A stretch of 34,456 nt of DNA from Anaerolineales bacterium. GTDB taxonomy: Bacteria; Chloroflexota; Anaerolineae; E26-bin7. Position 1 is the first letter of the stretch. Each line of letters starts with the position of its first letter. The notes below the pieces were generated by a model, which did no database searches, was not told the origin of the DNA, and was given only the letters and a program-made list of their open reading frames with translations. The position numbers and the translations under genes are program-made. This document shows, in pieces, positions 1 through 18,845 of the stretch. The DNA lies in the NCBI GenBank assembly GCA_004377365.1, contig SOHZ01000673.1:1-34456 (forward strand), given 5' to 3'.

Positions 1-1438
1 CCTTGGCCTGGTCAACCATCAGGCGGTTAATGCCCATCTCCCACTCCCAGCCCAGAACGTGGAGCTCTTTCTGCTCCATTGCTTTACACTCGGCCAGGCA
101 CTCGTTGATCTCGTCAATGGTCACCGGGGCATCCACCGCGCCGACGTGGATCACGGCGCTGCCTTTCTTGCCGTGCAGGTGCTGAGTTCCGGCCAGGGGT
201 TGCGCGCCATAGAGGTCCAAGATGAATTTGAGGTACTCAAAGATGAGCATCTGCTGGGGGCGCTTCTGGCCGCCAAAGGTGACCCCTTGCCAGACCTGCC
301 GCTCGTACTGGCCCAGGTTGAGAATCTCGAAGGGGCGGCAATCAGGAATGTCCATCAGCCGCTTGCGAGTGGTGTGAATGGCGTAGCGGCTCATATCGCA
401 GCCGATCCAGCGTCGCCCCAGTTTTTCAGCCACGGCCAAGGAGGTGCCGGAGCCGCAGAAGAAGTCGGTGACGAGATCGCCTTCATTGGATGAAACCGTT
501 ATGATTCTTTCCAAAAGGGCCTCCGGTTTCTGCGTGTCGAAGTCCAAATGCTCATAGCCTCGCGGGTGGACCTTTTTCACATCCCACACATCGCGCAGTG
601 AAACCCCTTGCGACTCTTCGTCTGTTTCTCGTTTGACCCACGTTCCATCCTTGGTTTGCACAGTCGTAAGACGCTTCCCGCCATAGTCACTGAGGGTTCT
701 CTCGCTGGCCTCTTCCCATAAGGTATTGAATACGTGCGAATTATCGGTATTTTTGGTGTAAAACAGAATGGTATCATGCATTCTTTGAAAGTTCTTCGCT
801 CTTGTCGGCCAGCGACGATAAAACCAAACGATCTCGTTGCGAAAGCAGGATTGCCCGAAGATGTCATCTAACATTAGTCGAATCTGAGATCCGACATGCC
901 AATCAATATGCACATAGAGGCTTCCGCTATCTGACAGTAGGTCACGGACAAGCCAAAGCCGCTCGTACATCATGCTGAGATATGAATTTAGTCCTTGGCC
1001 CCAGGTATCCCTGTATGCTTTCTCCTCAATGATCGACTGCTCTTTGGTCACTTTCACGTCACCGTCACCAATCTGCGACGTGAATGAGAAATCTGCCCCT
1101 GTCGCAAACGGTGGATCGATGCAGATCAGGTCAATCTTGCCGGCAAAGTGCTCCAGCAAGGAGCCCATCACGTACAAGTTGTCGCCCCAGATAAGCTTGT
1201 TACGCCAGCCGTCGCCCTCGCCAGCCATCTGCTCTTCTTCGGCCTGCCAGTAGTCAAAGAGGGTACCTACGTGGCCGGCAAGTTCTTCTTTGTGCCGCTC
1301 GCGGGTAGCGCGGGTCTCATTGACCCCCTCGATGACCTGGAAGGGCAGGTTGACGCGGCGGGGCGGCACCAGGTTGCCCTCTTCGTCGTATTTGCCGGGC
1401 CAGACAAGTTCGGTGCGGGTGATTTCGATTTTGGGCAT
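1..1438 (-). CDS. Beta-class site-specific DNA methyltransferase (N6-adenine or N4-cytosine), partial
   Basis: The frame is open for 479 codons from ATG at 1438 and runs off the left edge, so the C-terminus is missing. The catalytic motif IV, DPPF, is at residues 108-111. The S-adenosylmethionine motif I, FCGSGT, is at 327-332. The order IV before I marks the beta class, which includes type III Mod and many orphan methylases. The protein should transfer a methyl group from SAM to adenine-N6 or cytosine-N4 in DNA; the target site cannot be read. AGGAGGAG lies upstream of the start. The gene starts 15 nt after the DUF5615 toxin gene and is probably the last or near-last gene of the radC-helicase-NTPase run. 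Its first 47 codons are duplicated at 2145-2285. No restriction endonuclease is visible in the window. The family call is firm; modification partner and specificity are unknown. Confidence 0.9.
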   Translation of the reverse strand, partial: MPKIEITRTELVWPGKYDEEGNLVPPRRVNLPFQVIEGVNETRATRERHKEELAGHVGTLFDYWQAEEEQMAGEGDGWRNKLIWGDNLYVMGSLLEHFAGKIDLICIDPPFATGADFSFTSQIGDGDVKVTKEQSIIEEKAYRDTWGQGLNSYLSMMYERLWLVRDLLSDSGSLYVHIDWHVGSQIRLMLDDIFGQSCFRNEIVWFYRRWPTRAKNFQRMHDTILFYTKNTDNSHVFNTLWEEASERTLSDYGGKRLTTVQTKDGTWVKRETDEESQGVSLRDVWDVKKVHPRGYEHLDFDTQKPEALLERIITVSSNEGDLVTDFFCGSGTSLAVAEKLGRRWIGCDMSRYAIHTTRKRLMDIPDCRPFEILNLGQYERQVWQGVTFGGQKRPQQMLIFEYLKFILDLYGAQPLAGTQHLHGKKGSAVIHVGAVDAPVTIDEINECLAECKAMEQKELHVLGWEWEMGINRLMVDQAK

Positions 1439-1453
1439 CGTGGACTACTCCTC

Positions 1454-2091
<638 letters not shown>

Positions 2092-2132
2092 TCAACTCCT
2101 TGTCTAGAGTCACAGGTCGACGCGCTCATTTC

Positions 2133-2285
2133 TCACTCGCGCTCCTCGCGGGTGGCACGGGTCTCGTTGACCCGCTCGATGACCTGGAAGGGCAGATTGA
2201 CGCGGCGGGGCGGCACCAGGTTGCCATCGTCGTCGTATTTACCGGGCCAGACAAGTTCGGTGCGGGTGATTTCGATTTTGGGCAT
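2133..2285 (-). pseudogene. Truncated duplicate of the methyltransferase start
   Basis: A 50-codon open frame beginning MPKIEITRTELVWPGKYD, the same N-terminus as the methyltransferase at 1-1438, then ending in TGA. By eye about 8 of 141 aligned bases differ between 2145-2285 and 1298-1438, with no gaps. It keeps its own ribosome binding site (GAGGAG) and ATG, so a 50-residue peptide could be made, but both catalytic motifs are absent. It lies 36 nt after the membrane NTPase gene and 44 nt before the DUF433 gene. It is best read as the former start of the methyltransferase, left behind when the TA pair entered. Confidence 0.85.
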
Positions 2286-2321
2286 GGTTCAACTCCTCAA
2301 GGCTATGCTGATTTACGACCC

Positions 2322-4643: not shown

Positions 4644-5725
4644 TGCGATCCTCCTCCAAGTCCCAACACCTGGAGCAACCATGTCAGGAACTCGTGCATG
4701 GGTAACACTCCTGTCAGAAACAGTATCACCAACAGCAAGATCAAGATGCCCACAATCCAGTTGCGAACATCATCCCAGGTGGCACCCAGCCAACCGGCGG
4801 TGCGGCCCAACCAGGCAGGAGCCTGCCACACCTGCCGGGCCATCCACTGTCCCAAGCGTCGCCGCAGTCCTCGGTAGGGTCCTGCTTGGCGACGGAATTG
4901 AGCGCGCACCCAATCCTCGCCTCGGCCAGTAGCCTGCGCTTCACAGACGTAGTACGCTGCCATCTGCAAGAAGAAGGGATGGCGTCCGCCCAGCGACAGG
5001 GCCAATTCCTGATCACGTACGCCCAACGCCGGTGGTCCACCGGTAACGTCTGCCGGCAGCATCACCAACTCGCGAGCTTCATCTTCAGGGAACTCCTCCA
5101 AATAGAGCGTATTGCCCAGGTTGAAGAAGCGGGACACAAAACGAAATCGGCTACCGTAGTAGATCAATGACTTGGCTGAGGCGATGATCAGCATGAGCAG
5201 TTGGTCGTCCATCAAGGCCCGCAGCCCGTCGTAGAAGCGGTCGTCGAATTCGTCTGGGGCTTCCAGTAGCGCCTCGAATTCATCCAGGCAGAGAACGGTA
5301 CGGAGGTCTGCCTCAGCAAGTGCCTGCAGGCTCTTACTGAAGGTGACTAGCTCAGTGCATGTGACAGGCCAGGCCGGCAACGTGGCTGCGTCTGGGTGCT
5401 GGCTGAGAGCTTGCGCTATGGCGCTGCCAACCTTTTGTAGGAAACCAGCCACTGTACGGACCCGGGCATCTTGCAAACTCACCTGCCCTACGAGGAAGCG
5501 CTGCGGGTTATCAAGCCGTTGGTAGTAGGTCTGGTAGACATGGTAAATCAGAGAACTCTTACCAATACGCCGCCCGCCCACAACCGCCACACTGGTCATC
5601 TGTGTCCCCGCCATGCGCTGTGTGATGAAGCGCAACTCCGCCTTGCGACCGACGAAGCGGGCTGGATTTATGATCTTGCCACCGAAATAGAACGGGTTAG
5701 TGGTGGATGTTGAAGGAATGACCAT
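4640..5725 (-). CDS. P-loop NTPase with C-terminal membrane anchor
   Basis: A 361-residue protein. An FVGR motif at residues 24-27 and Walker A GGRRIGKSS at about 50-58, followed by Walker B TVLCLDEF at about 143-150, are the layout of archaeal-type/STAND AAA ATPases (AAA_16-like). Residues about 325-347 form a single strongly hydrophobic segment, so the ATPase is likely cytoplasmic and tail-anchored. The start ATG has GGAG about 11 nt upstream. Its stop overlaps the next NTPase start as ATGA, suggesting that both products act together, possibly as a heteromeric membrane complex. It follows the helicase-nuclease gene by 69 nt. The substrate or signal cannot be read. Confidence 0.8.
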   Translation of the reverse strand: MVIPSTSTTNPFYFGGKIINPARFVGRKAELRFITQRMAGTQMTSVAVVGGRRIGKSSLIYHVYQTYYQRLDNPQRFLVGQVSLQDARVRTVAGFLQKVGSAIAQALSQHPDAATLPAWPVTCTELVTFSKSLQALAEADLRTVLCLDEFEALLEAPDEFDDRFYDGLRALMDDQLLMLIIASAKSLIYYGSRFRFVSRFFNLGNTLYLEEFPEDEARELVMLPADVTGGPPALGVRDQELALSLGGRHPFFLQMAAYYVCEAQATGRGEDWVRAQFRRQAGPYRGLRRRLGQWMARQVWQAPAWLGRTAGWLGATWDDVRNWIVGILILLLVILFLTGVLPMHEFLTWLLQVLGLGGGSQ

Positions 5726-5794
5726 GATTCAGTGCTCCATATTCCAGTCCTTATTTGGAGAAAAGGCCAGCGTTCTCATGTTTACTGTACAAGC

Positions 5795-8671
5795 TTATCT
5801 CGTTTGCAAGCTGATTGTTCCCTGTCGCTGACAGTATACCCTGAAGTCACACTCCCCACACACCTTCACCTCCGGTACTTCTTGCACGGCAAAGTCGCGG
5901 GCCAGGATTTGGGCGACCACACTATCGAAGTAGGCCCCGGCCTGGGCTACTTTCTCCGGTTCATAAGGAAAGAACATCAGTGCCTCCTCTCGCTGGGCCT
6001 CGCCGGTCCAGTAGAGAGCCAACCGCTCTGGGCGCTTGCCGTAGCGCTGCTCCAGAATGTGGGCGTAGATAAGCAACTGCTGATGATAGTGGGTCAGCCG
6101 TCGGTCGTCCTCCTGTGGGCGGGGTTGCGACTTAAAGTCCAGCAACTCCAACTTGTTGTCTTCGCCCAGCAGCAGGTCCACCCGGCCTGTGAGAATGTAC
6201 TGCTCCTTCTCCAGGGAGACGTCCACCTCGGTCTCGATGACCTGTGGCATTCGATCCTGATTTTGGTTGAAGTAGTTCATCACCTGCTGGAAGGCCACAT
6301 CGCGTTGGGGCTGGCTGATGGGGCGGTAACCGGCGTTGACCAGGCTGCGAAAATTGGCCTCGAACATACCGGGAATGGCCATCTTGATCAAGGGTAGCGA
6401 CTGGCCCTCCAGCACCCAGCGATGGATGTCTTCGATGGTTTGATGCACCAAAGCCCCGAAAAAGATCTCGGCCGAACGGGAGGGAGCAAACTCGTACTCG
6501 CGGAAGAACTGGTACTGGCGCGGGCAGGTTTCGTAGACCTTGAGGTGGTTGGTGAAAGAGAAAGATTTCTTCAGGGGCACCCGTTCCTTGAGCTCAAAGT
6601 GCTGCGCGGCCAGCAGGTCTTGCTGCACGTAAGGCCACTGGGGCAGCCCCTGCCATAAAGGATTGAAGTGTGGCTTGGGCGTGTCGGTGGTGGTCAGCAT
6701 CAGCAGTTTCTCGGCCCGGGAGAAGGACACATAGTGCAACCGCATACGGTCGAATTCGGTGATACGCTTCTCCGGCTCAAAGGGCTCGCGGTGGTAAAAT
6801 GGTCCCAGCAATCGGTCTACCTGTTTGCCCGAAGAGATATTGGTCGCCAGAGAGCCAACAATCACCACCGGGAACTCTAACCCCTTACTCTGATGGATGG
6901 TCATCACCTGGACGTGGCCGGAGGGGAAAGGGCGGTCAGGGTCCTCGTACTCATTGATGCCGCCCAGGTACAGGAAGCGCAGGAAGCTGTTGAAGAAGCG
7001 CAGCCGCAGGAAGCCCCGGTTGGCGTAGGTGATCACACTATAGCGGTAGTAATGCTGGAAAACCGCCAACAGTTGGCTAAAGATGGCCAGGTTGCGGGCG
7101 CGGTTCTCGTTGCCCATCATGGCGGCAAAGGGCTCGTGGGCGATAAATTCGTAGAGGTAATCGGCCAGGTGACGGTTCAGAGTCTGGCCCTCACGTAGCG
7201 CTTCGATCTCGGCCACCCGCCGTTGCAATACCTGGGCCAGGGGGTGATCGGCCACCACACCGGCCCGGGCCAGAGTGGTCAGACAGCCGTCCACGTAATC
7301 GGCCAGTTCACGCAAGGCGTAACCACTCAGGTTGCCTCGATTGTCTCCATACCAGCCCAGCAGCACGGCGAAGCAGCCTGCCATCAGGCGCACCTCTTCG
7401 TTCTCAAAGTAGGCCCGGGCGCGTGGGGCGAAGGCCGGGATGCTGTGTTGTTCCAGGGCCTGAACGTAGGGGCCAGAATGGTCGGTGCGCACGCTGTGCA
7501 AGAGCAACGCCACCTGATTATAGTCCTCGATCATCTGCTTCTCCTTGAGGAAAGCCACCAGATCGGCAACTCGATTGGCTTCATCGGTCCGATCTACGCC
7601 CCAGATAGCGAACACAGCAGGGTAGTCGGGGTGCTCATCGTTTTGGTTGGGCTCGATGGTTTTGGTGTAGCGAAAGTCAAAGGGCGAGTTGGGATTCGAC
7701 CAGTCGCAGCCGGCCATAAAACGGTTATAGCCCGCGATGATCCGCTCATGCGAGCGGTAGTTCACAGTTAGGCGGACCTGCGGGCAGGGGTTAAAGTGCT
7801 TGCCGAACTCTAGGATGTTGCGGACCGTCGCCCCCCGGAAGCGGTACAGGCTCTGGTCATCATCGCCGACCACACACAAGTTATCTTGAGGAGCGGCCAG
7901 ACGGAGCAATAGTTGTTCCTGGATGTAGTTGGTATCCTGGTATTCATCTACGAGCACATAGCGCGCTTCAGCGTGAACCTGCGTGGCGATGTCCTGTTGC
8001 GTTAGCAGATCGTAGAAAACCTTCTGTTGGTGGGCAAAGTCCAATCGGTTGCGTGCCCGCAGGTTTTCTTCGTAGCGTTGATAGGCCAGGCCCAGTTGCA
8101 GCAGAAATGAATCGTCGCTGGCGACCAACGCCCCAGGATCTACCAACTCCTCAGTCATCTTGTTGAAGAATTCCGTCAGCCCCTTTATGGTCGTCCAGCG
8201 GGTGGACCACTTGCCCAGATACTTACCTTCTGCATCCGGCTCGCCAACGATCTCGTCAAAATTCTCGAACAGAAAGAGGGCCTGGGTCAGCTCATCCAGC
8301 ACCTCGTAGCCAGTGCCCAGCCAGGTGTGGTGGCGAAAGCGGGTCAGGTAATTGTTGCAGATGCCGTGAATGGTGCCCACCTGGAGCTGCGAGAGGTCGC
8401 CCGTGTAGCCAAGGGTGCGGGCTGCCTGGGCTACCCGGTCCCGCAGCTCAAAGGCGGCCTTTTCGGTGAACGTGCAAAGCACAATCTCCTTTGGCTCAGC
8501 CTTGCCTTGCAGCAAGATGTTCAAGGTGCGCACCACCAATACCAGCGTCTTGCCCGACCCCGGCCCGGCGATGATCAGCAACGGGCCGTCGGTCCGAGCC
8601 ACAGCCTCCCGCTGGGCCTCGTTTAGAAAGGGATAGTGTTGCTCGATAGCAGGGTGCAATTCTAAACTCAT
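5795..8671 (-). CDS. UvrD/PcrA-type superfamily 1 helicase fused to a PD-(D/E)XK nuclease
   Basis: A 958-residue ATP-dependent 3'-5' DNA helicase fused to a nuclease. Helicase motifs seen: Walker A AGPGSGKT (about 35-42), motif II LVDEYQDTN (about 240-248), GDDDQSLYRFRGA (about 269-281) and HQSKGLEFPVVIVG further on. The C-terminus holds a RecB/Cas4-like nuclease with D832, D845 and K847 (LLDFKS) and a YHQQLLIYA helix. An Fe-S cysteine set is also present: VYETCPRQY, then C938, C941 and C947. This architecture matches AddB/Cas4-type end-processing enzymes rather than plain UvrD. ATG at 8671 overlaps the radC stop as ATGA. The role may be recombination repair or degradation of invading DNA; the neighbouring methyltransferase and NTPases favour defence, which is an inference. 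Confidence 0.9.
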   Translation of the reverse strand: MSLELHPAIEQHYPFLNEAQREAVARTDGPLLIIAGPGSGKTLVLVVRTLNILLQGKAEPKEIVLCTFTEKAAFELRDRVAQAARTLGYTGDLSQLQVGTIHGICNNYLTRFRHHTWLGTGYEVLDELTQALFLFENFDEIVGEPDAEGKYLGKWSTRWTTIKGLTEFFNKMTEELVDPGALVASDDSFLLQLGLAYQRYEENLRARNRLDFAHQQKVFYDLLTQQDIATQVHAEARYVLVDEYQDTNYIQEQLLLRLAAPQDNLCVVGDDDQSLYRFRGATVRNILEFGKHFNPCPQVRLTVNYRSHERIIAGYNRFMAGCDWSNPNSPFDFRYTKTIEPNQNDEHPDYPAVFAIWGVDRTDEANRVADLVAFLKEKQMIEDYNQVALLLHSVRTDHSGPYVQALEQHSIPAFAPRARAYFENEEVRLMAGCFAVLLGWYGDNRGNLSGYALRELADYVDGCLTTLARAGVVADHPLAQVLQRRVAEIEALREGQTLNRHLADYLYEFIAHEPFAAMMGNENRARNLAIFSQLLAVFQHYYRYSVITYANRGFLRLRFFNSFLRFLYLGGINEYEDPDRPFPSGHVQVMTIHQSKGLEFPVVIVGSLATNISSGKQVDRLLGPFYHREPFEPEKRITEFDRMRLHYVSFSRAEKLLMLTTTDTPKPHFNPLWQGLPQWPYVQQDLLAAQHFELKERVPLKKSFSFTNHLKVYETCPRQYQFFREYEFAPSRSAEIFFGALVHQTIEDIHRWVLEGQSLPLIKMAIPGMFEANFRSLVNAGYRPISQPQRDVAFQQVMNYFNQNQDRMPQVIETEVDVSLEKEQYILTGRVDLLLGEDNKLELLDFKSQPRPQEDDRRLTHYHQQLLIYAHILEQRYGKRPERLALYWTGEAQREEALMFFPYEPEKVAQAGAYFDSVVAQILARDFAVQEVPEVKVCGECDFRVYCQRQGTISLQTR

Positions 8672-9351
8672 AGCAGGCCGTTTTCACGAAAGCTAAAGTG
8701 AGCATCCTGGGACACGATGATATGATCGTAGACAGAGATGCCCATCGTCTTTGCTGCCAGAACCAGACCGCGCGTAAGAGTCTTGTCGAATTCTGAGGGC
8801 GTAACGTTGCCGTCAGGATGGTTATGGACGAAGACGAGATTCGAGGCTTTCGACTTGAGGGCGTGCTCCATCACCTTACGGGGATAGACAGCCGCCTGGT
8901 CAATCGTCCCTTCGGCAATGAGTTGTTCATCCACGATGGCAAACTTGCCATCCAGATAGATCACCCGAAACTGCTCGTTACTCTGAGCACCCATGCGGGC
9001 CATGCAGTAGTCAATCAAGCTTTCCGGGGTGTCCAGGGTAAAATCTGTTCGGGTCTTTTGTTGCAGGTAGCGGGTGGCTGCCTCTTTGATAAAGCGGATC
9101 ATGGTGACTGCGACCGGTCCCACGCCCTCCACGGCCAGGAGCTCCTCTTCGGGGGCATCGAGGACTTCTTTGAATGAACCGAACTTGCCGACTAGTTCCT
9201 TGGCAATAGGTTTGACATCCTTAACAGGGATGGCGAACATGAGAAGAAGCTCCAGAGCTTCGTAGTCTTCCCGAAAGACGTCCAGTCCAAACTGGCGAAA
9301 CTTGGCTCGTACTCGTTCACGGTGGTGCAGGTAGTGTGGCTTTCTCGTCAT
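8668..9351 (-). CDS. radC: RadC family JAB/MPN domain protein
   Basis: A 227-residue protein of usual RadC length. A helix-hairpin-helix segment (LAVEGVGPVAVTMI, about 70-83) precedes the JAMM metal-binding motif: H176, H178 and D189 in VHNHPDGNVTPSEFD. RadC proteins have no settled biochemical role despite the historical repair name. They are frequent in mobile and defence regions. The product is tightly coupled to the helicase-nuclease (ATGA overlap). The ribosome binding site before ATG 9351 is weak. Upstream lies a leader of about 270 nt with three hairpins and a strong promoter at 9630-9658. Confidence 0.9.
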   Translation of the reverse strand: MTRKPHYLHHRERVRAKFRQFGLDVFREDYEALELLLMFAIPVKDVKPIAKELVGKFGSFKEVLDAPEEELLAVEGVGPVAVTMIRFIKEAATRYLQQKTRTDFTLDTPESLIDYCMARMGAQSNEQFRVIYLDGKFAIVDEQLIAEGTIDQAAVYPRKVMEHALKSKASNLVFVHNHPDGNVTPSEFDKTLTRGLVLAAKTMGISVYDHIIVSQDAHFSFRENGLL

Positions 9352-9436
9352 AGGACACCGTCATGCCGGATGAACAGTCGCCTGCGCGTCTGGGTACACG
9401 CCGTAGTGGTCGGTCAAGAGGAAGGCTGAGACCATA

Positions 9437-9473
9437 AGAGCCGCTTCTCCTGCTTGACACAGAAAGCGGCTCT
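9437..9473. other. 10-bp inverted repeat in the radC leader
   Basis: AGAGCCGCTT at 9437-9446 pairs perfectly with AAGCGGCTCT at 9464-9473 across a 17-nt loop. There is no T-tract on either strand, so it is not an ordinary intrinsic terminator. On the minus strand it falls in the 5' leader of radC. On the plus strand its loop contains the -35 box of the predicted small RNA. Confidence 0.75.
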
Positions 9474-9483
9474 CTGGTATCAT
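9454..9483 (+). promoter_or_regulatory. Sigma70-like promoter for a plus-strand small RNA
   Basis: TTGACA at 9454-9459 and TATCAT at 9478-9483 with an 18-bp spacer. No protein gene lies downstream on the plus strand. A hairpin with a T5 tract ends about 85 nt later, which supports a short noncoding transcript. Confidence 0.55.
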
Positions 9484-9489
9484 CTCAGA

Positions 9490-9572
9490 GCCTGGCCTTC
9501 CTGAGCGAAGCAGGAAGGGGGCATTGTCATCATGAAGGGCCACCGCGCTCGGAACGCGGTCGGTCCCTTTTT
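9490..9572 (+). ncRNA. Predicted small RNA antisense to the radC leader
   Basis: About 83 nt, bounded by the promoter at 9454-9483 and the terminator at 9537-9572. It contains a perfect 8-bp hairpin (CCTTCCTG at 9496-9503 with CAGGAAGG at 9511-9518, 7-nt loop). No known RNA family is recognised. It lies wholly inside the predicted 5' leader of the radC operon on the opposite strand, so it could regulate that operon by base pairing. Transcription is a prediction from promoter and terminator only. Confidence 0.45.
9537..9572 (+). terminator. Intrinsic terminator of the predicted small RNA
   Basis: GGGCCACCGCG at 9537-9547 folds with CGCGGTCGGTCCC at 9555-9567 (6-bp perfect inner stem, outer stem with small bulges, loop CTCGGAA). 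T5 follows at 9568-9572 and then further pyrimidines. On the minus strand no T-tract follows, so it should not stop radC transcription. Confidence 0.6.
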
Positions 9573-9880
9573 CCTTTCCCCTCAGGCCCCATCGCTCTTG
9601 AGGGGGTAGGTTACGGTCTGGCTGATTTAATTATATCATGCATTGTGAGAAAATGCAATAGGAAACAAGTAATAAGGGATAGGGTGCAGACTGCCGTGCG
9701 CGCCCCAAAAGGCGCTTGAAAGGTCCTGGTTTAGCCGCGTCGCTGCCTCAAGCAGGCCCAAAACGGGCGTTTCTTGCCTTATATATTTTAGCACACTTCT
9801 GTTAGGGTAGAGTTAGAGAAAGGTTAGAATTTTGTTTGAAATTCGCAGGGAGACCACCCTCTGAACGGCTGCGATAACAT
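9573..9880. other. Noncoding stretch upstream of the radC operon
   Basis: It holds the radC promoter (9630-9658), a small GCGCCCCAAAAGGCGC hairpin around 9699-9714 and AT-rich sequence near 9780-9840. No supported gene is seen on either strand. The gyrB scar begins at 9881. Confidence 0.6.
9630..9658 (-). promoter_or_regulatory. Strong promoter of the radC-helicase-NTPase operon
   Basis: On the minus strand TTGCAT (complement of 9653-9658), a 17-bp spacer and a perfect TATAAT (complement of 9630-9635). The start point would be near 9623, giving a leader of about 270 nt before radC. Confidence 0.7.
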
Positions 9881-9967
9881 CTACACGTCCAGATTTCGCA
9901 CACTCTTGGCATGGGCCTGGATGAAGCGCTTGCGGGGCGGGACGCTGGAACCCATTATCATGTCCAA
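9881..9967 (-). pseudogene. gyrB: Scar of the gyrB 3' end (last 28 codons plus stop)
   Basis: The minus strand reads [20 protein letters not shown], then KSVRNLDV and TAG. This matches the conserved C-terminus of DNA gyrase subunit B (LMG..V.PR..FI..A..V.NLDV). Nothing upstream of 9967 continues the gyrB reading frame; the next gene is a vapC toxin ending at 10010. The fragment cannot be functional alone. It is a junction scar that marks where the TA island meets an older gyrB-radC arrangement. I infer that a full gyrB exists elsewhere. Confidence 0.8.
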
Positions 9968-10009
9968 GGAACACAAAGGTCCGTACGCCCCTTGTTCTTT
10001 GGGATCGAT

Positions 10010-10402
10010 CTACTCGTGGCGATAGAATTCGATAGCAATCAGTTCCTTGAGTGTGGTAAAATCACGCGTGTCGCGCGTCAACAAAGTACGCCCGGTGAGT
10101 TCTGCACTGGCAGCAATTGCCGCATCGGGTAGCGACAACCTGTCTAACCCGATCTGACGCCGCAGTTGTCCCGCCCGCCGGGCAATCGCGCCGTCCAAAG
10201 GCACTCGTTCCAACAAGGCCAGCATTGCCTCGTGCCGTTCTTCCTCGCCAGCTCGGATGCCCTGCCACAACTCCAGTTCGGTAATGGTGGAAAAAGCGCC
10301 GGTAGCCTCTCCGTTCAGGATCCTCTCGATGTAGGGGGTCACCCCTGGCCGGTCGTGGTAGTAGTCAATCAGAGCCACACTATCAAGCATCCAGCCGGGC
10401 AT
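10010..10402 (-). CDS. vapC: VapC-type PIN domain toxin
   Basis: A 130-residue PIN ribonuclease of usual VapC length. The acidic active-site positions are visible: D7 in MLDSVALIDYY, E42/E44 in TELELW, D93 in SLPDAAIAA and D111/D114 in TRDTRDF. VapC toxins cleave RNA, often tRNA or rRNA. The ATG at 10402 has AAGGA upstream and lies within the 3' end of vapB (20-nt overlap), so the two are translationally coupled. The gene ends 42 nt from the gyrB scar. Confidence 0.88.
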   Translation of the reverse strand: MPGWMLDSVALIDYYHDRPGVTPYIERILNGEATGAFSTITELELWQGIRAGEEERHEAMLALLERVPLDGAIARRAGQLRRQIGLDRLSLPDAAIAASAELTGRTLLTRDTRDFTTLKELIAIEFYRHE

Positions 10403-10673
10403 GTTCCAGTTCCTTATCTCTTTCTATCAGGCCAGTCCGGCTGGCGGTCAGGTAGCTGTCTGGGTCTCGGTCGGCCCACATGCCCCGCGCGGCCCGGGCC
10501 AGAGCGACCAGTTTTTCCCGCGAACGCTCCTTGGAGGCAAGATCGATCTCGCCGGCCACCCAGCGGGCTAACAAGTCACGTATCACTTCACTCACCGCCA
10601 CATTTTCTCTCAGAGCTTTGATCCTGGCCCGGTGAAAGATGGACTCTGGGACGTTAATCGTGGTGCGATGCAT
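10383..10673 (-). CDS. vapB: VapB-type ribbon-helix-helix antitoxin
   Basis: A 96-residue protein with an N-terminal ribbon-helix-helix (MHRTTINVPESIFHRARIKA, then VSEVIRDLLARWV) and a charged C-terminal tail that should wrap around the PIN toxin. It precedes and overlaps vapC. A strong promoter with a dyad lies just upstream (10697-10735), consistent with autorepression. Confidence 0.85.
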   Translation of the reverse strand: MHRTTINVPESIFHRARIKALRENVAVSEVIRDLLARWVAGEIDLASKERSREKLVALARAARGMWADRDPDSYLTASRTGLIERDKELEHARLDA

Positions 10674-10696
10674 ATTTTCACTCCATATATATGTCT

Positions 10697-10735
10697 GTAT
10701 GCGTCAAGTATACCCCATTTCGTTCCCGTTGTCAA
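10697..10735 (-). promoter_or_regulatory. vapBC promoter with overlapping dyad
   Basis: Minus strand TTGACA (complement of 10730-10735), 17-bp spacer, TATACT (complement of 10707-10712). A near-palindrome GTATGC (10697-10702) and GTATAC (10708-10713) covers the -10 box, a likely VapB operator. Confidence 0.75.
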
Positions 10736-10862
10736 TGAACCTACCTGACGCAAGTTGAGCCGGACGGTTACCTTGAACGAAAGCCAACAGGTAGAGCCGT
10801 GGAAAGGCTTCTCTGATCAGGCGGCGTTGGATCATGACATGTTTCTCACGAATGTATCCCCA

Positions 10863-10976
10863 CTCTACGCTGTCTCGGCCAGCGCCTCGGCCGGGTAACG
10901 GGCGGTGAGGGCCTCAGCGACCCGCTCCCGCTGTTCCCGGTCCAGGGTGACCAGGGTGCTGCCAAAGCGCAGGGCC
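10863..10976. repeat. 114-bp copy of the 3' end of the vapC at 16571
   Basis: 10863-10976 matches 16569-16682 with 3 mismatches counted by eye. It covers the stop codon and the last 36 or so codons of that vapC. Identity ends abruptly at 10976. The direction is the same on both sides (minus-strand coding). Confidence 0.9.
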
Positions 10977-11283
10977 GATAGCTTGCCCCAGGTAACAGGG
11001 TGGCACAGATCGGCCACGCTCCGCTCTTTGGAGGCGGTAAAGGCGAACTCTTGCATCAACTGTGCGGCGGTTTCGCGGAAGCTGGGCGGGCAGTTCTCGT
11101 CGGCGGGGTCGGGCCACAGGGCAGCGCAGAGCACGGCCCGGCAGCCGTCCAGCGGTCGCCGCGCCCACCAGATGTGCAGCGTGCAGATGTGCCCGTGCCG
11201 GATGGATTTCTCGCGCCGGGCGTGGGCGATGATGCGCTTGATGGGCAGGTCAACTTCGATGAGGCGTTTGGGGTATGGGGTCA
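10865..11283 (-). pseudogene. Chimera: DUF1156 methylase N-terminus fused in frame to a vapC tail
   Basis: An intact 138-codon frame. Residues 1 to about 103 are the start of a DUF1156 (COG1743-type) adenine-specific DNA methylase, with [23 protein letters not shown] and [16 protein letters not shown]. The last 36 or so residues (LRFGSTLVTLDREQRERVAE onward) are the tail of the PIN toxin encoded at 16571-17008. DUF1156 proteins are normally far larger, and no methylase catalytic motif remains. GGAG lies upstream of the ATG, so the chimera might be translated. It is a recombination product, and any function is unknown. Confidence 0.85.
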
Positions 11284-11300
11284 TCCAGCAGTCTCCGTGC

Positions 11301-11367
11301 CTACCAGATGTGCGGGGGGGAGATATGCCCGTGGCGGATGGATTTCTCACGCCAAGCATGGGCGTGG
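11301..11367 (-). pseudogene. Short degenerate DUF1156 fragment
   Basis: The minus strand encodes a broken version of the segment [11 protein letters not shown]...PHIW, matching the intact copies at 11178-11247 and 12890-12958 with several substitutions and small length differences. It sits directly upstream of the chimera and is the third copy of the same gene region in 1.7 kb. Confidence 0.7.
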
Positions 11368-11388
11368 CACACCTTTGCGAGGGATAGA

Positions 11389-11649
11389 TTATAGGTTGGT
11401 CGTGTGCAGTCCCCGTGCTTCCAGTAGGCGGACGGCTTCCCAGGAACTGATGTCCAGTTGCTCCGCCAGGTAGCCTAGACTGCACTCACCTTGTTGGAAC
11501 ATCTCGTACAACTCGGCCAACTTTTGTTCAAAACCTCGTCGCACCAGGTCTTCCAACACCGGCGATGGGTTAGGGACCGCTTCACGCAACAGCCGCTGGC
11601 TAATGTCTTCTATTTGCGGCTCGGTAGGATAATGAACTACTTTAGACAT
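11389..11649 (-). CDS. UPF0175-like antitoxin
   Basis: An 86-residue protein starting MSKVVHYPTE. Its C-terminal half (LYEMFQQGECSLGYLAEQLD, then WEAVRLLEARGL) has the helix-turn-helix pattern of UPF0175 proteins, which pair with DUF3368-type PIN toxins. The ATG at 11649 overlaps the toxin stop by 13 nt; a longer frame to 11754 lies inside the toxin gene and lacks support. Here the antitoxin follows the toxin, a reversed order that occurs in this family. Regulation is probably through the shared upstream transcript. Confidence 0.7.
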   Translation of the reverse strand: MSKVVHYPTEPQIEDISQRLLREAVPNPSPVLEDLVRRGFEQKLAELYEMFQQGECSLGYLAEQLDISSWEAVRLLEARGLHTTNL

Positions 11650-12167
11650 CTTCGGTCTCCAGTCCTCAATATGGTCAGGGTGTGAGGCACAAAGCCGCCC
11701 GAAAACCTGTGCTGCACGGCTTTGACCACATCCTCGGCTAAAGCTCGCCTCCACAACTTGCGCTCGACCAGCTCAATGACCATGTCTAGAAACAAGCAGC
11801 AGGGGATATCGCACCGTTGGCCGACCACGTAAGCCAGCCGATCATCCGTGACCAGAAAATCCAGTTCGTCTGCTTTATCCAGATAGAGGGCAATGCTCTC
11901 TTTCTCACCCGATCCCAGCCTATAATGGCCCAGCACGTTATCGGAGGGCAGACTTGTCGGGATGACCTCAATGCGCCCTTCACCAATGATACGGTCAGCC
12001 AAGCGCGCATCCGGGAACCTGGCGCGGGCCGCGAGCACTTCCTGGTGAACCGCCATCGGAACGCGCAAGGCACACACTTCCAGGACACTTTCGATGGCTG
12101 GGCCGTCTTGGGTCATAGCCTGGCAACAGGTGATCAAAGCATTTGCATCAAAGACCAGTTCAAGCAT
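11637..12167 (-). CDS. PIN-like toxin (DUF3368-related)
   Basis: A 176-residue protein from ATG 12167, chosen because AAAGGA lies just upstream; an in-frame GTG at 12182 is the alternative. Acidic positions fit a PIN nuclease: D7 in LVFDANALI, E43 in HQEVLAA, E88/E90 in GSGEKESIAL and D108/D109 in LVTDDRLA. The GEKESIAL and TDDR pattern is typical of DUF3368 proteins. It begins 29 nt after the RelE-type toxin stop and overlaps the UPF0175 gene, so four genes (12705 to 11389) may form one transcript. Confidence 0.78.
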   Translation of the reverse strand: MLELVFDANALITCCQAMTQDGPAIESVLEVCALRVPMAVHQEVLAARARFPDARLADRIIGEGRIEVIPTSLPSDNVLGHYRLGSGEKESIALYLDKADELDFLVTDDRLAYVVGQRCDIPCCLFLDMVIELVERKLWRRALAEDVVKAVQHRFSGGFVPHTLTILRTGDRRCLK

Positions 12168-12196
12168 AACTTTTCCTTTCACTGTGCATTATAGCA

Positions 12197-12421
12197 TTAG
12201 TTACCAGGAAAGACAACCTCCATATAGTGAAAGGTGAACCGATGATTCAAATCAATGCGCCCCTCCCACACGTCGGGCACGCCCTGGACACGCTTCACAC
12301 CCAACGAGGGATGGCGCGGGTTCTCCTTGAACAGCATGAACGCCTTGGCCGCTTTTGCCTGAATCTCGCGCGGCAACCCGGCTGCCGCTTTCTTGAATCG
12401 CTTTGTGCGGACGTATCTCAT
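12197..12421 (-). CDS. RelE/ParE-type toxin
   Basis: A 74-residue basic protein with the RelE/ParE fold pattern: RTKRFKKAAAGLPREIQAK, then GVKRVQGVPDVWEGRI and a terminal DLNHRFTFHY strand. ATG 12421 forms ATGA with the stop of the upstream antitoxin and is preferred over the upstream ATG at 12430. Family members cut ribosome-bound mRNA or inhibit gyrase; which applies here cannot be read. Confidence 0.78.
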   Translation of the reverse strand: MRYVRTKRFKKAAAGLPREIQAKAAKAFMLFKENPRHPSLGVKRVQGVPDVWEGRIDLNHRFTFHYMEVVFPGN

Positions 12422-12705
12422 CGCGGCCAACTGAGGTCGTCAATCAAGTCTTCCATCGTGTCAAAGCTTTCGTGACGTCCGGCCGCCAGGTCAGCTTCCG
12501 CTTCGCGCTCGCCGGCTTGCCATTCCTCCGTCCAGAACCAGGCTTGGTCTTCGGCGGTCGCCAATGTCTCACGCAGGTAATCGGCGAGCGCGCCAGCCAT
12601 ATCGGGCGTGATTTCCAGGGTCTCGCGGGCGGCGCTGGCCAGTCGAGCCCGGCGCGCAAAAGACTGTACCTTGTCGAGTATGGGACGTTCTATCACTGTG
12701 CTCAT
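12418..12705 (-). CDS. Antitoxin partner of the RelE-type toxin
   Basis: A 95-residue acidic protein with SFDTMEDLIDDL near its C-terminus, a pattern seen in RelB/Phd-like antitoxins. The N-terminal half has no DNA-binding motif that I recognise. It is coupled by ATGA to the toxin. A candidate promoter (12780-12807) lies about 75 nt upstream, within the tail of a DUF1156 fragment. Confidence 0.65.
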   Translation of the reverse strand: MSTVIERPILDKVQSFARRARLASAARETLEITPDMAGALADYLRETLATAEDQAWFWTEEWQAGEREAEADLAAGRHESFDTMEDLIDDLSWPR

Positions 12706-12779
12706 TGTTCACCATCCTTTCGCCATCTTTTTGTGGAATGGGTTTCTTCCAGGTTCCAATGATGGTTTCGGCGTCTGAT

Positions 12780-12807
12780 ATTTTATCACTGCCCTACCGG
12801 GGCGCAA
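12780..12807 (-). promoter_or_regulatory. Candidate promoter of the four-gene TA operon
   Basis: Minus strand TTGCGC (complement of 12802-12807), 16-bp spacer, TAAAAT (complement of 12780-12785). The -35 box is weak. Confidence 0.4.
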
Positions 12808-12992
12808 CTGCAAGCGGGGTCGGGCCACAGAGCGGCGCAGAGCACGGCCCGGCAGCCGTCCAGTGGTCGCCGCGCCCACCAGATGTGCAGCGTGGAGATG
12901 TGCCCATGGCGGATGGATTTCTCGCGCCGGGCGTGGGCGCTGATGCGTTTGATAGGCAGATCTACTTCGATGAGGCGTTTAGGGTAGGTCAT
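12786..12992 (-). pseudogene. Truncated DUF1156 DNA methylase start
   Basis: A 68-codon frame starting [20 protein letters not shown] and continuing through [10 protein letters not shown] and [16 protein letters not shown] to DP, then a few unrelated residues and a stop. It is roughly 90% identical at base level to the copy in the 10865-11283 chimera. Only the first 60 or so codons of the methylase remain. It follows the two tandem DUF433 genes and precedes the RelE-type operon. Confidence 0.82.
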
Positions 12993-13049
12993 CGTCCCCC
13001 AGATCGTCCTCCAGGAAGAGGGGTCATGCGAATGCGATATACGCATACG

Positions 13050-13289
13050 TTACGCCTCTGAAATCTCGTAGGAGTAGACCTTCTCAGCCTGCAAGACGGC
13101 GCTAGCATAGCCCAGGCATGCCTGAATGTCTTCGCGCGTGAGTCCAGGATAGTTGCGCAGAATTTCTCCTTCGCTCCATCCCTGAGCCAGAAGGTCAATG
13201 ATGAACTCCACGGCCAGGCGTGTGCCCTTCACAACGGGTTTCCCCACAAGAATTCCTGGATCAACAACAATTCGATCTTGCCAATTCAT
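13050..13289 (-). CDS. DUF433 domain protein (second of a tandem pair)
   Basis: A 79-residue DUF433 protein (DRIVVDPGILVGKPVVKGTR, then LLAQGWSEGEILRNYP). ATG 13289 overlaps the stop of the preceding DUF433 gene as ATGA. A DUF5615 or PIN toxin would be expected downstream, but the next coding sequence is the DUF1156 fragment at 12992. It is therefore an apparently toxin-less antitoxin, or it serves the toxin upstream at 13596. Confidence 0.83.
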   Translation of the reverse strand: MNWQDRIVVDPGILVGKPVVKGTRLAVEFIIDLLAQGWSEGEILRNYPGLTREDIQACLGYASAVLQAEKVYSYEISEA

Positions 13290-13531
13290 CGCACACCTCC
13301 CTCAGCCAACTCTAGCGTGTGAACAGACTCGTCGGCCAGCCAAGCGGCATACGCCAGCGCCTGACGGATGTCATCCGGTTCCATGTAGGGATATTCGGCC
13401 AGGATTTCCTCGGTGCTCATCCCGTTCGCCACCAGGTTCACGATCAGCGACACCGTGACCCGCATCCCACGAATGCACGCGCGTCCCCCCATCACATTGG
13501 GATCAAAGGTAATGCGATCAAAGCCTAACAT
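13286..13531 (-). CDS. DUF433 domain protein (first of a tandem pair)
   Basis: An 81-residue DUF433 protein (DRITFDPNVMGGRACIRGMR, then LVANGMSTEEILAEYP). A GGAG-containing site is about 9 nt upstream of ATG 13531. It lies 64 nt after the DUF5615 gene and overlaps the next DUF433 by ATGA. It is clearly related to, but diverged from, the other three DUF433 proteins in the window, so it is not a recent duplicate of its neighbour. Confidence 0.83.
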   Translation of the reverse strand: MLGFDRITFDPNVMGGRACIRGMRVTVSLIVNLVANGMSTEEILAEYPYMEPDDIRQALAYAAWLADESVHTLELAEGGVR

Positions 13532-13595
13532 CGTCTTTTCTCCATCTCAATCACTATTCTTTCTTGACGTCACTGGTGCCTTTGCGGTTCAATCC

Positions 13596-13949
13596 TTACC
13601 GCCACTTGTTCAGCCAGCGCACTTGACTGATCCAATCCTCCGCTTGCGTCTCCGCGAGGAGTCGGTCCAAAGCCGCGATCAGGTCAGATAAGGTCCAACT
13701 GGCTTGAGCGGCCAGAATGATGCCGCCATGCCGGGGGTAACGCTGGGCCAGGACCACGAAATCGCGAACGTTGAAGGTAAAGATGCAGCGTCCCTGGGCG
13801 GTGGCCTGCAATAACAGAGTTTCATCGCTGGCGTCCGCCGCCATCCACTCGTTCGGGGTTCGCGTCACATCATGGCCGTGCGCGACCAGGGCCGCTTGCA
13901 GCGCCTTGATAGATGCGTCAGCATCCAAGTGCAGCCGGGGCTTAGACAT
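13596..13949 (-). CDS. DUF5615 PIN-like toxin
   Basis: A 117-residue protein with LHLDADASIKALQAAL at the N-terminus, FTFNVRDFVVLA in the middle and HGGIILAAQ, matching DUF5615. The acidic residues D8/D10 and the NVRDF motif correspond to the DEN and LDxDF motifs of the copy at 1454-1846. Its ATG overlaps the RHH-DUF433 gene by 8 nt. It is probably an RNase toxin silenced by that protein. Confidence 0.78.
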   Translation of the reverse strand: MSKPRLHLDADASIKALQAALVAHGHDVTRTPNEWMAADASDETLLLQATAQGRCIFTFNVRDFVVLAQRYPRHGGIILAAQASWTLSDLIAALDRLLAETQAEDWISQVRWLNKWR

Positions 13950-14340
13950 AGGTCTCTTCTATAGCCTGCTCAGCCGCGATGGCGGCCTCTATTTCCGCGC
14001 GGTGGGCCTCGTAGAACGCCAGGGCTTCGTTCACCTGGGCCTCGGTCAGGCCATACTCGGCGGCGATGTGGGCGGGCGTCAGTTCCCACCGCTGAGCGGC
14101 CACCACCACCGTTTGAACGCGAATGCCTGTCCCGCGCAGGACAGGCACGGGCTGTCCCGCAGCGCCGCGACGGTACGTGAGGTGCGGAAAGGCCAGGTCA
14201 TCGAGACTCTGGCTGAGCGAGCCTACCTTCTCTGCCACGGCCCACATGATGAACTGGTTAAGCGAGACGCCTTGATTGGCCGCCCATTTTTCCGCTTCTT
14301 CTTTCAATTGAGCCGGCAAGTTCAAAGGGTATCGCGCCAT
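13942..14340 (-). CDS. Antitoxin with N-terminal HicB/RHH-like segment and C-terminal DUF433
   Basis: I take ATG 14340 (132 residues) because GGAGGG precedes it; an upstream GTG at 14364 is less likely. Residues 1-45 (YPLNLPAQLKEEAEKWA, then SLNQFIMWAVAEKV) look like the ribbon-helix-helix of HicB/Arc-type repressors. Residues about 60-115 (VPVLRGTGIRVQTVVVAAQR, then LTPAHIAAEYGL) form a DUF433 domain. Two DNA-binding modules in one antitoxin are notable. The partner toxin gene overlaps by 8 nt. A strong promoter with a dyad lies at 14392-14429. Confidence 0.78.
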   Translation of the reverse strand: MARYPLNLPAQLKEEAEKWAANQGVSLNQFIMWAVAEKVGSLSQSLDDLAFPHLTYRRGAAGQPVPVLRGTGIRVQTVVVAAQRWELTPAHIAAEYGLTEAQVNEALAFYEAHRAEIEAAIAAEQAIEETYV

Positions 14341-14391
14341 CGGTCCCTCCTGATTCCGAAACACTTCTGTTTAGACATCACAGAGCACATC

Positions 14392-14429
14392 GTATAACAT
14401 ATCATACAATAGATTCTGGATGCTGTCAA
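14392..14429 (-). promoter_or_regulatory. Promoter and dyad upstream of the RHH-DUF433 operon
   Basis: Minus strand TTGACA (complement of 14424-14429), 17-bp spacer, TATGAT (complement of 14401-14406). An imperfect palindrome GTATAACATATCATAC (14392-14407, 12 of 16 positions symmetric) overlaps the -10 box, a likely autorepression site. Confidence 0.75.
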
Positions 14430-14487
14430 GTTGATACCCTTTTTACCGCCAAGGCGCAAAGATTCCTGGATTTTATTTCCTTGGCAT

Positions 14488-14823
14488 CCTTCGCGTCCTT
14501 GCGATTCAACTTTTGAGACCCATGCACCTGCGGGCCTTTCTGAGCAATTCGACCAACGGCATCAAATCGTCCAGCGTGGCGTGCTGGCGGACGTGCTCGG
14601 CTAGCATCGTCTTGTAGTCGTGGGTCTGGCCGCCCTTCTCCACCGGCTTGCCGTTGATGACGAGCTTACATCTTTACGCTGGAATCGTTCCTCGACCGCG
14701 TCGGGATACTGGCGCACAAAGGGGACGATGAGCGCCTGGGGCAGCATGTCCTCAATTTCCACGTCCCAACTCTTGCCGCCTCTATTCGTGTGATTCGTCT
14801 ATTCGCGTCATTCGTGATTCAAC
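14488..14823. repeat. Similar short direct repeats flanking the remnant gene
   Basis: TTCGCGTCCTTGCGATTCAACT near 14490-14511 resembles TTCGCGTCATTCGTGATTCAACT near 14802-14824 with one gap and a few changes. Around 14784-14818 ATTCGTG-like units recur several times. These may be the ends of a small degenerate repeat element. Confidence 0.4.
14506..14780 (-). pseudogene. Frameshifted remnant of an unrecognised protein gene
   Basis: The minus strand first reads GGKSWDVEIEDMLPQALIVP and onward to ERFQRKD. It then needs a frame change to read KLVINGKPVEKGG, then DYKTMLAEHVRQHA, and a stop at 14506. Both halves have the look of real protein but no start and no common frame. I do not recognise the parent family. 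It lies between the TA promoter at 14392-14429 and the 579-residue gene, and similar TTCGCGTC...GATTCAACT sequences flank it. Confidence 0.55.
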
Positions 14824-16558: not shown

Positions 16559-16570
16559 GACGTTTCTCCT

Positions 16571-17008
16571 CTACGCTGTCTCGGCCAGCGCCTCGGCCGG
16601 GTAACGGGCGGTGAGGGCCTCAGCGGCCCGCTCCCGCTGTTCCCGGTCCAGGGTCACCAGGGTGCTGCCAAAACGCAGGGCCACGGCGGCATAAACGGCA
16701 TCGCTGCCCCGCAGACGGTACTGGGCCGCCACGCCGGCCGCCTGCTGCGCCAGCGACGTATCCAGCGGGACCAACACCAGGTGGGGCAGACGGCTCAAAG
16801 TGGCCGCGAACTGGCGCGCCAGGTCCTCGTCTTCCCGCCCCCGGCTGACGGCGGCGGCCACCTCTGGCAGCAACAAGGTCGGCACGATGATGGGCACCGA
16901 CTGCTCCTGCAGCCAGGCCAGCAGGCGATGGCTTTCCTCGTGCCCCACCTCGTAGGGATTGAAAGCGTTCAGGAAGACACTGGCATCCACGGTGTAGGTT
17001 GTCGCCAT
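16571..17008 (-). CDS. vapC: VapC-type PIN domain toxin
   Basis: A 145-residue PIN ribonuclease. Active-site acids: D8 in YTVDASVFLNAF, E49 in LLLPEVAAAV, D103 in LRGSDAVYAAVA and D121 in VTLDREQRER. ATG 17008 shares its A with the phd stop (TGATG) and has AGGAG at good spacing; an in-frame GTG at 17011 is the alternative. The 3' end is duplicated at 10863-10976, fused to a methylase fragment. The gene is coupled with phd upstream and a helical protein downstream. Confidence 0.88.
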   Translation of the reverse strand: MATTYTVDASVFLNAFNPYEVGHEESHRLLAWLQEQSVPIIVPTLLLPEVAAAVSRGREDEDLARQFAATLSRLPHLVLVPLDTSLAQQAAGVAAQYRLRGSDAVYAAVALRFGSTLVTLDREQRERAAEALTARYPAEALAETA

Positions 17009-17289
17009 CACTCTCTCCTAGCACGCATCTCTGACAGTAACTCGGCGCTGGTCCGGGGCGAACGCCATCCCCGGCCGATCTCCTCGCCCAGTCGGCTCAG
17101 TTCTTCCCACACGGCGATCCCACGCTCGCTGCCAGCCACCGCCTCGGCCTGCGTTGCTTCATCCAGCGGAAGCAACACACCCACTGGCCGCCCCCGGTAG
17201 GTGATGACATACCGGGCACGTCGCTCCCGCACGTTTCGGATGATCTCCGAGGCGCGGGCTTTGAGCTCTCGCACACCAACGTCAGGCAT
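17008..17289 (-). CDS. Phd/YefM-type antitoxin
   Basis: A 93-residue protein starting MPDVGVRELKARASEIIRNV, then ITYRGRPVGVLLPLDEA, the classic Phd/YefM fold sequence. The C-terminal half (SRLGEEIGRGWRSPRTSAEL) should bind the toxin. AGGAGGAG lies just upstream of the ATG. It is expected to repress its own promoter at 17354-17381, possibly through the dyad at 17333-17354. Confidence 0.88.
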   Translation of the reverse strand: MPDVGVRELKARASEIIRNVRERRARYVITYRGRPVGVLLPLDEATQAEAVAGSERGIAVWEELSRLGEEIGRGWRSPRTSAELLSEMRARRE

Positions 17290-17332
17290 AGCTCCTCCTA
17301 AAATGCCAGATCTAATGGAAAAACCGGGTTTC

Positions 17333-17381: not shown

Positions 17382-17382
17382 C

Positions 17383-18687
17383 TCACGGATACATCCTCCC
17401 CAGCAGCCGGGGGAAGGGGATGGTCTCGCGGATGTGGTGGATGCCACAGATCCACATAATAGTCCGCTCCACCCCCAGACCAAAACCAGAGTGGGGCACC
17501 GAGCCGTACTTCCGTAAGTCCAAATACCATTCATAGGCCGCACGAGGCAGGTTGTGCTCCTCGATGCGCCGTTCCAAGAGTTCATAGCTGGCCGTGCGCT
17601 GGCCGCCGCCGATGATCTCACCGTAACCCTCAGCAGCCAGGAGGTCCACTGACTTGGAAACCTCGGGCCGCCCTGGTTCCTCCTCCATGTAGAAAGCCTT
17701 GCATTGAGTGGGGTAGTGGTGCACAAAGACTGGCTTCTCGAAACGGTCGCCCACAGCCACCTCGTGCGGAGCGCCGAAATCGTCGCCCCACTCGATGGGC
17801 ACGCCCTCTTTGTTCAGGATCTCTACCGCCTCGTCGTAGCTGATGCGCGGGAAGGGCGGGACGACTTTTTCCAGGAGGGTCGTGTCCCGCTCCAGTACCT
17901 TCAACTCGTTGGCCCGGTTCTTTAGCGTGGTTTGGACGATGTAGCTGACGAACTCTTCTTCCACTCTCATGCACTCGTCCAGGTCGGCGTAGGCCATCTC
18001 CGGCTCGACCATCCAGAACTCCATCATGTGGCGGCGGGTTTTGGATTTCTCGGCGCGGAAGGTGGGGCCGAAACAATAGACCCGGCCAAAGGACATGATG
18101 TCGGCTTCGTTGTACAGTTGCCCGCTCTGGGTCAGATAAGCCGGCTCCCCAAAGTAATCCGTGGCAAAGAGGGTGGTGGTGTCCTCGCAGGCCGAAGGGG
18201 TGAGAATAGGTGTGTCCACGTTGAGGAAGCCGTTGCCGTCCAGCCAATCGCGAATAGCACGGATGACCTCGGCACGCACCCGCAGGATAGCCCACTGGCG
18301 CGAGGAACGCAACCACAGGTGGCGGCGATCCATCAAAAACTCAACGCCGTGCTCCTTGGGGGCGATGGGGTATTCCTCGGCCAGTTGCACTATCTCGATG
18401 TCCCTGATGGATAGCTCGTACCCGCCGGGGGTGCCCGGGGCTCGCTCGTCGGCCCGCACCGTGCCCGTGACGATGAGAGACGACTCCTGAGTCACTCCCT
18501 GGGCTGCCTCAAAGACCTCTGGTGGGACCTCTTTCTGAAAGACCACCCCTTGCACCAGACCGGTGCCGTCCCGCACTAGCAGGAACTGCAACCGGCCCTT
18601 GTCGGTCTTGTTGTAGAGCCAGCCCTTGATGGTCACCTCCTGGCCTTCCCAATTGGCAATGTCCTCAATGTAAATGTTCTTGGCCAA
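17383..18687 (-). CDS. asnS: Asparaginyl-tRNA synthetase
   Basis: A 434-residue class IIb synthetase that charges tRNA-Asn with asparagine in the cytoplasm. An N-terminal OB-fold ([19 protein letters not shown]) precedes the catalytic domain. Motif 2 is [20 protein letters not shown] (about 210-229) and motif 3 is [13 protein letters not shown] with R408. The length and the sequences SGQLYNEA and CEDTTTLF fit AsnRS better than AspRS, though a nondiscriminating AspRS-like enzyme is the main alternative. The start is TTG at 18687 with GGAGGTG upstream; no ATG fits. It has its own promoter (18740-18768). Confidence 0.92.
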
Positions 18688-18739
18688 ATCGCACCTCCAA
18701 ACCCGAGTATTTTATGAGACAGGAAATCCACTGCCAATT

Positions 18740-18768
18740 ATTATAACACATCGTCCACAGATTGTCAC
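18740..18768 (-). promoter_or_regulatory. asnS promoter
   Basis: Minus strand GTGACA (complement of 18763-18768), 17-bp spacer, perfect TATAAT (complement of 18740-18745), about 55 nt upstream of the TTG start. The palindrome at 18775-18813 lies just upstream. Confidence 0.7.
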
Positions 18769-18774
18769 CCATGA

Positions 18775-18813
18775 ATCAGACTTCCAAAGTCTCCGAGACT
18801 TTGGAAGTCTGAT
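18775..18813. repeat. 39-nt perfect palindrome between the S8 protease gene and asnS
   Basis: Two 19-nt arms (18775-18793 and 18795-18813) are exact reverse complements around one C. It could end transcription of the S8 gene, but no T-tract follows on either strand. The core AGACTTCCAAAGTCT also occurs at 26291-26305, so it may be a dispersed repeat. Confidence 0.8.
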
Positions 18814-18845
18814 CGCGCATGTCCACGGTTGAGAAAAGCAAGGGG

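Follow-up and report, generated by a model that had tools for sequence, protein, structure and literature searches.

A truncated gyrB 3′ end beside a toxin–antitoxin pair suggests that such pairs settle next to genes and leave gene-end copies behind

Chromosomal toxin–antitoxin (TA) pairs are plainly horizontal, yet they often stand alone among housekeeping genes with no mobile element. The 3′ ends of genes are classic targets of integrases, and homology-facilitated illegitimate recombination is a route for foreign DNA in natural transformation. Another precedent comes from restriction–modification (R–M) systems, which, according to the relevant passages of two papers, insert with long, variable target duplications of the order of 100 bp (PMC3874152, PMC1643837; both cite Nobusato et al. 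2000 for this). The passages on long target duplication in PMC3874152, a 2013 review that treats the R–M case in a section on R–M and TA mobility, do not extend it to TA pairs. Our searches of the open-access literature returned no report of TA pairs with target duplication, no paper describing homology-facilitated illegitimate recombination for such pairs and none on gyrB as an integration site. The arrangement described here is like the R–M case in that a small addiction-type pair is accompanied by direct repeats of ~100 bp copied from the target, with no transposase. It is unlike it in that type II TA or TA-like genes form the cargo, the repeats are gene ends bounded by a start or stop codon, and the copies appear to be diverged alleles rather than identical duplicates.

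The window, a 34,456-nucleotide stretch of DNA from an Anaerolineales bacterium, belongs to a draft genome of 676 contigs with 7% contamination. Its preliminary description had recognized a gyrB 3′ end directly before which TA genes stop, and both parts of that description are borne out. The Vap-type genes (10010–10673) lie immediately upstream of the gyrB end, and a DNA search of the same genome found a complete gyrB (G000:C458, a 665-aa open frame with the top gyrB family score) that matches the fragment at 90% over 88 bp (E 2e-27), in an alignment that stops at the stop codon of gyrB. With a 643-aa gyrB query the fragment was recovered too, in a 42-aa open frame (E 9e-9). Read on the minus strand (9967–9881), the fragment encodes 27 residues from D, or ~28 counting the junction codon, followed by TAG; relative to the genome's own GyrB protein it has A for T (FIQAHA/FIQTHA) and one L to I change. 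The segment is thus a truncated copy, similar to the genome's own gyrB and with the remainder of the gene absent. As the intact gyrB and the tail are on separate contigs, the gyrB layout is only partly seen in this genome. A search for RNA families in the gap next to the fragment gave nothing credible.

The tail shows 10 differences in 87 from the genome's own gyrB and 10 in 87 from the gyrB of a congener (G001), so that, about equidistant from the two, it resembles a third allele within the genus; the genome's own gyrB compared with that of G001 has no odd 3′ stretch. Of the codons that changed on the branch leading to the fragment, roughly half did so non-synonymously, and the fragment has therefore drifted too. 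The block that holds the tail may have arrived with it from a congener. As a separate observation, the gyrB of G001 (L076, G001:C675, 44–3652) carries a large intein-like insertion after residue 507 within one 1225-aa open frame; a similar insertion is present in G005, G016 and G019 and absent from the gyrB of the window genome.

Comparison of the window with itself revealed a TA block organized around copied gene ends, at least four of which adjoin TA or TA-like pairs, namely the starts of a methylase gene (154–156 bp) and of a DUF1156 gene (183 bp) and the tails of vapC (114 bp) and gyrB (Table 1). The toxin gene abutting the gyrB tail has an NCBIfam VapC match that is weak and below the cut-off. 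Its homologue in Anaerolineae CSMAG_674 is 84% identical and has no gyrB tail; the idea that VapBC and the gyrB tail move together as one fixed unit was accordingly rejected, the closest VapBC homologue lacking the tail. The pair between the two methylase starts was assigned from Pfam (DUF433, E 1e-23; DUF5615, E 2e-11). DUF1156, too, has support from family searches. The pairs between the DUF1156 copies matched no family at threshold in Pfam or NCBIfam, so that their TA assignment is a prediction, and several antitoxins are likewise without a family match. The second DUF1156 copy runs on downstream until the vapC tail breaks the gene.

Table 1. Features of the window that bear on the gyrB tail and the other gene-end copies.
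Feature	Coordinates	Strand	Evidence
Intact N6/N4 DNA methylase gene	2-1438	-	Pfam N6_N4_Mtase
Methylase ribosome-binding site and first 47 codons	1298..1453	-	92% to 2145-2298
DUF433/DUF5615 pair, predicted TA, between both methylase 5′ ends	1454..2088	-	Pfam
Methylase 5′ end, truncated copy beyond TA pair	2145..2298	-	92% to 1298..1453
Divergent accessory RadC	8668..9351	-	RadC in Pfam and NCBIfam; low identity to relatives' RadC
Promoter-like repeat downstream of gyrB tail, three CTAAC, 11-bp period	9779..9870	-	Own-genome copies
gyrB 3′ end, partial copy, ~28 codons and TAG	9881..9967	-	90% to own gyrB, 88% to gyrB of same-genus G001
PIN toxin, VapC type, in the pair that abuts gyrB tail	10010..10402	-	Pfam PIN, E 1e-12
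Predicted antitoxin overlapping PIN toxin gene	10383..10673	-	Position, overlap; weak VbhA match only
vapC 3′ tail, partial copy fused to DUF1156 gene fragment	10863..10976	-	114 bp, 97%
DUF1156 gene 5′ end, second copy	11103..11285	-	183 bp, 92% to 12814-12993
Two small TA-like gene pairs between DUF1156 copies	11389..12705	-	Size, overlap, sequence
DUF1156 gene 5′ end, first copy, truncated	12814..12993	-	Pair with 11103..11285
Intact PIN toxin gene, source of vapC tail copy	16571..17011	-	Pfam PIN
Phd antitoxin partnering PIN gene 16571..17011	17008-17289		Pfam PhdYeFM

The gyrB tail had been taken to mark the edge of a TA island. It lies instead within accessory DNA, flanked to either side by accessory genes, between a methylase–ATPase–UvrD–RadC block and the TA block. 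The genome of G001 matches the window at 85–89% over 17382–23999 (asnS onwards), and most of 4001–17300 has no counterpart there, only short stretches matching at other locations, which places the gyrB fragment within accessory DNA; at the site itself, the region is absent from G001 or the contig edge is reached. The genes at 2–9351 encode, consecutively, a methylase, two AAA/STAND-type ATPases, a UvrD helicase with a PD-(D/E)XK nuclease domain and RadC; this row is missing from the congener where compared (from 4001), and it looks like a defence block. Downstream of the tail, the repeat at 9779–9870 has five further copies in the genome (78–92% identical), which precede response-regulator genes, glmS and an exosortase-like gene. 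It was rejected as a part of gyrB, being an upstream repeat of other genes and one of the genome's regulatory repeats; its 11-bp CTAAC period is the spacing of direct-repeat response-regulator sites.

The layout of interest, an intact gene followed by a TA pair and then by a truncated copy of the same gene's end, was found again outside the window. A 753-kb census sample of the same genome gave one further clear case, in which threonine ammonia-lyase is followed by an antitoxin, a PIN toxin and a 310-bp tail of threonine ammonia-lyase (88% identical). In addition, the leader of the gene next to a hicA pair recurs as an 81-bp copy flanking that pair. A single 2.4-Mb contig of G303, a member of a different family of Chloroflexota, carries a complete gyrB, a DUF6883/DUF4926 pair (the DUF6883 frame with an internal stop), a second gyrB tail and a hairpin; the two tails are identical over ~80 bp, which fits plain duplication equally well. 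Ten further loci, chosen solely for encoding a relative of the window VapC, were scanned, and the layout is plain in two of them: a purT gene, PIN pair and 59-bp purT tail in a Patescibacterium (L211, Candidatus Kaiserbacteria), and an alpha/beta hydrolase gene, PIN pair and 237-bp hydrolase tail in a cyanobacterium (L209, Coleofasciculaceae). Another two of the ten carry unassigned repeats around the PIN gene. The layout therefore occurs in three phyla (Chloroflexota, Patescibacteria and Cyanobacteria), with flanking repeats of 59–310 bp around TA or TA-like pairs and inserts down to ~0.6 kb. The earlier suggestion that the gyrB end served as an insertion target holds insofar as a gene end as a TA landing place fits this wider evidence. 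It fails insofar as it makes gyrB special: the same scars are present in vapC, methylase, DUF1156, threonine ammonia-lyase, purT and hydrolase genes, and gyrB as a particular hot spot was rejected. In an asnS-tail control, no short-frame copy was present among the matches listed, and short-frame gyrB tails do occur.

Several other candidates were discarded. A second case of gyrB, TA pair and gyrB tail in G091 was withdrawn because the join of its contigs C30 and C237 rests on a 66-bp overlap made up of repeat sequence that is scattered in dozens of copies. A 74-bp dispersed repeat (L120, G091:C237, 1–77) has dozens of G091 copies at 95–100% identity and related copies in the family, and contigs end at it. 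Candidate tails in G050, G443 and G028 proved to be a second full gyrB or a frameshift, and a gyrB piece in G291, which ends short of the stop codon, was left out.

Taken together, these layouts suggest that a TA pair comes to lie next to a gene and that a truncated copy of the gene's end then remains on the far side of the pair. For the window, the reading we favour on balance is that the fragment is the remnant of a gyrB allele's end, displaced when the 3′ end of gyrB gained a TA-bearing segment, either in the ancestry of the window genome or in a congener that supplied the block. Incoming donor DNA would bring a gene end with a TA pair immediately adjacent. The donor gene end would recombine with the resident allele to give one intact gene abutting the TA pair, and the other end of the donor DNA would join within the resident gene end, homology there being slight or absent. 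The resident gene end would then persist past the TA pair as a truncated copy, a 3′ tail if the TA pair lies downstream of the gene and a 5′ head if it lies upstream. In the window genome, the tail would later have been parted from the intact gyrB by rearrangement. We infer these steps, the role of the TA pair as mobile cargo and the later separation alike. The scheme resembles homology-facilitated illegitimate recombination, in which a homologous arm and an illegitimate joint add foreign DNA and part of the resident sequence stays. The fragment itself, the repetition of the layout with several genes, homology limited by gene borders and mostly synonymous differences count for it; gene-end copies without TA genes (L278 and G277, see below) and a close homologue of the window VapBC that lies elsewhere without any repeat count against it. 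So do the separate contigs of the intact gyrB and the window tail, the identity of the G303 tails, the drift of the fragment, the modules and antitoxins that match no family, a repeat–TA association that is weak by itself beyond the window, and the draft state and contamination of the genome.

A wider proposal, which we put forward tentatively and regard as rather doubtful, is that type II TA pairs on bacterial chromosomes in general need neither transposase nor integrase to spread, the end of the gene beside them serving as homology arm. If true, it would give addiction modules a general transposase-free route to housekeeping genes (gyrB, purT and threonine ammonia-lyase). The truncated gene-end scar on the far side would make TA landings countable in any genome, both where and how often they occur; the divergence of the copies would tell the distance of the donor, and the scar would tell exact duplication from allele replacement.

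The alternative that survives best, although we consider it unlikely, is that the TA pairs insert as R–M systems do, that repair of a wide staggered cut copies 40–310 bp of the target, and that the truncated copy then drifts. The look of the loci and the size range of the repeats (~100 bp, variable) match the R–M cases as the passages concerned describe them (PMC3874152, PMC1643837), and direct repeats of ~100 bp around an inserted pair are indeed found here, with the partner of the window gyrB tail on another contig. The copies are near-identical in G303, G277 and G091; those in G303 and G277 are recent and uninformative on drift. The drifting copy of an exact duplicate is expected to show a pN/pS of ~0.5 or more. 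Five copy pairs pooled gave 44.5 synonymous and 21.5 non-synonymous changes (pN/pS ~0.17), differences too synonymous for a drifting duplicate (P ~2e-5 under a duplicate-then-drift model with a ratio of 0.5, in a test on pooled small samples, with branch lengths taken as equal). As the differences are mostly synonymous, the two ends have the look of alleles that came from two different genomes. The limits of homology are also those of the genes, which random target cuts do not predict: relative to the stop codon, it ends at +0 for the genome's own gyrB and for G303, +2 for vapC (10863–10976 against the gene at 16571–17011), +3 for G091 and +9 for threonine ammonia-lyase, and at 5′ heads it is limited by the ribosome-binding site (methylase) or the start codon (DUF1156). 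Two alleles whose flanks differ would be expected to share homology up to the gene borders and no further. Finally, the cargo is PIN/antitoxin, DUF433/DUF5615 or DUF6883/DUF4926 rather than R–M; this difference and the failure of the copies to behave as identical duplicates set these loci apart from R–M long target duplication.

Slightly less plausible again is ordinary debris, whereby an accessory region that rearranges quickly accumulates, through random duplication and deletion, assorted gene pieces, that of gyrB included. The window does hold other broken pieces, such as the three of DUF1156, and tail copies free of TA genes exist: those of a TPR-protein gene flank a two-gene C39 peptidase module (L278, 3552–5222), and a remote intergenic site of G277 has an exact 40-bp gyrB tail to the stop codon (L138, G277:C2, about 181966–182046). 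Debris would not readily account for pieces that are gene ends bordered by a start or stop codon, for a layout that recurs in three phyla, or for pieces near TA pairs more often than expected. Six of 26 long direct-repeat pairs, counted unfiltered over 753 kb with the integron contig left out, enclose a whole TA cluster against 0.8 expected (P 2e-4; TA-like clusters make up 1.7% of the sample), and outside the window the figure is two of 22 (P 0.09). The association of repeats with TA genes is thus strong within the window and only suggestive elsewhere.

We give little credence to an integrase-driven, site-specific integration at the 3′ end of gyrB in which the element brought a replacement end. 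Tails that end exactly at the stop codon would suit an element that restores the coding end, and as in integrative elements at gene 3′ ends, the gene end is repeated at both sides of the insert. Unlike those elements, the loci here involve varied, unrelated target genes and 5′ ends too, with inserts as small as ~0.6 kb, and no integrase was noticed beside the tails in the reading frames examined. Likewise, no tyrosine or serine recombinase was present among the Pfam-scanned genes near the fragment or in the small inserts read, helpers acting in trans being possible.

The main reading of the preliminary description, that arrival of the island broke an ancestral gyrB–radC order, agrees with the reading direction of the gyrB tail, which points to radC, and is scarcely credible given a divergent, accessory RadC (its identity to the full-length RadC matches in 40 relatives never exceeds 35%), a congener that lacks the region, and no gyrB directly before radC in any relative checked, the nearest being ~10 kb apart (G031). 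The genome encodes a second RadC on contig C440.

Integron TA cassette arrays are similar to these loci in that small TA units gather in one genome. The repeats in the window are unlike those of integron cassettes, being coding gene ends that differ between loci and not attC sites; attC-like repeats were found on another contig of the genome. This integron-like array (L269, G000:C116, 690–14385) has ~12 repeats of 105–170 bp, one of them with attC-like GCCTAAC...GTTAGGC ends, and its cassettes, mostly on one strand, include Fic, HicB-like, RelE-like and DUF433/DUF5615-like genes.
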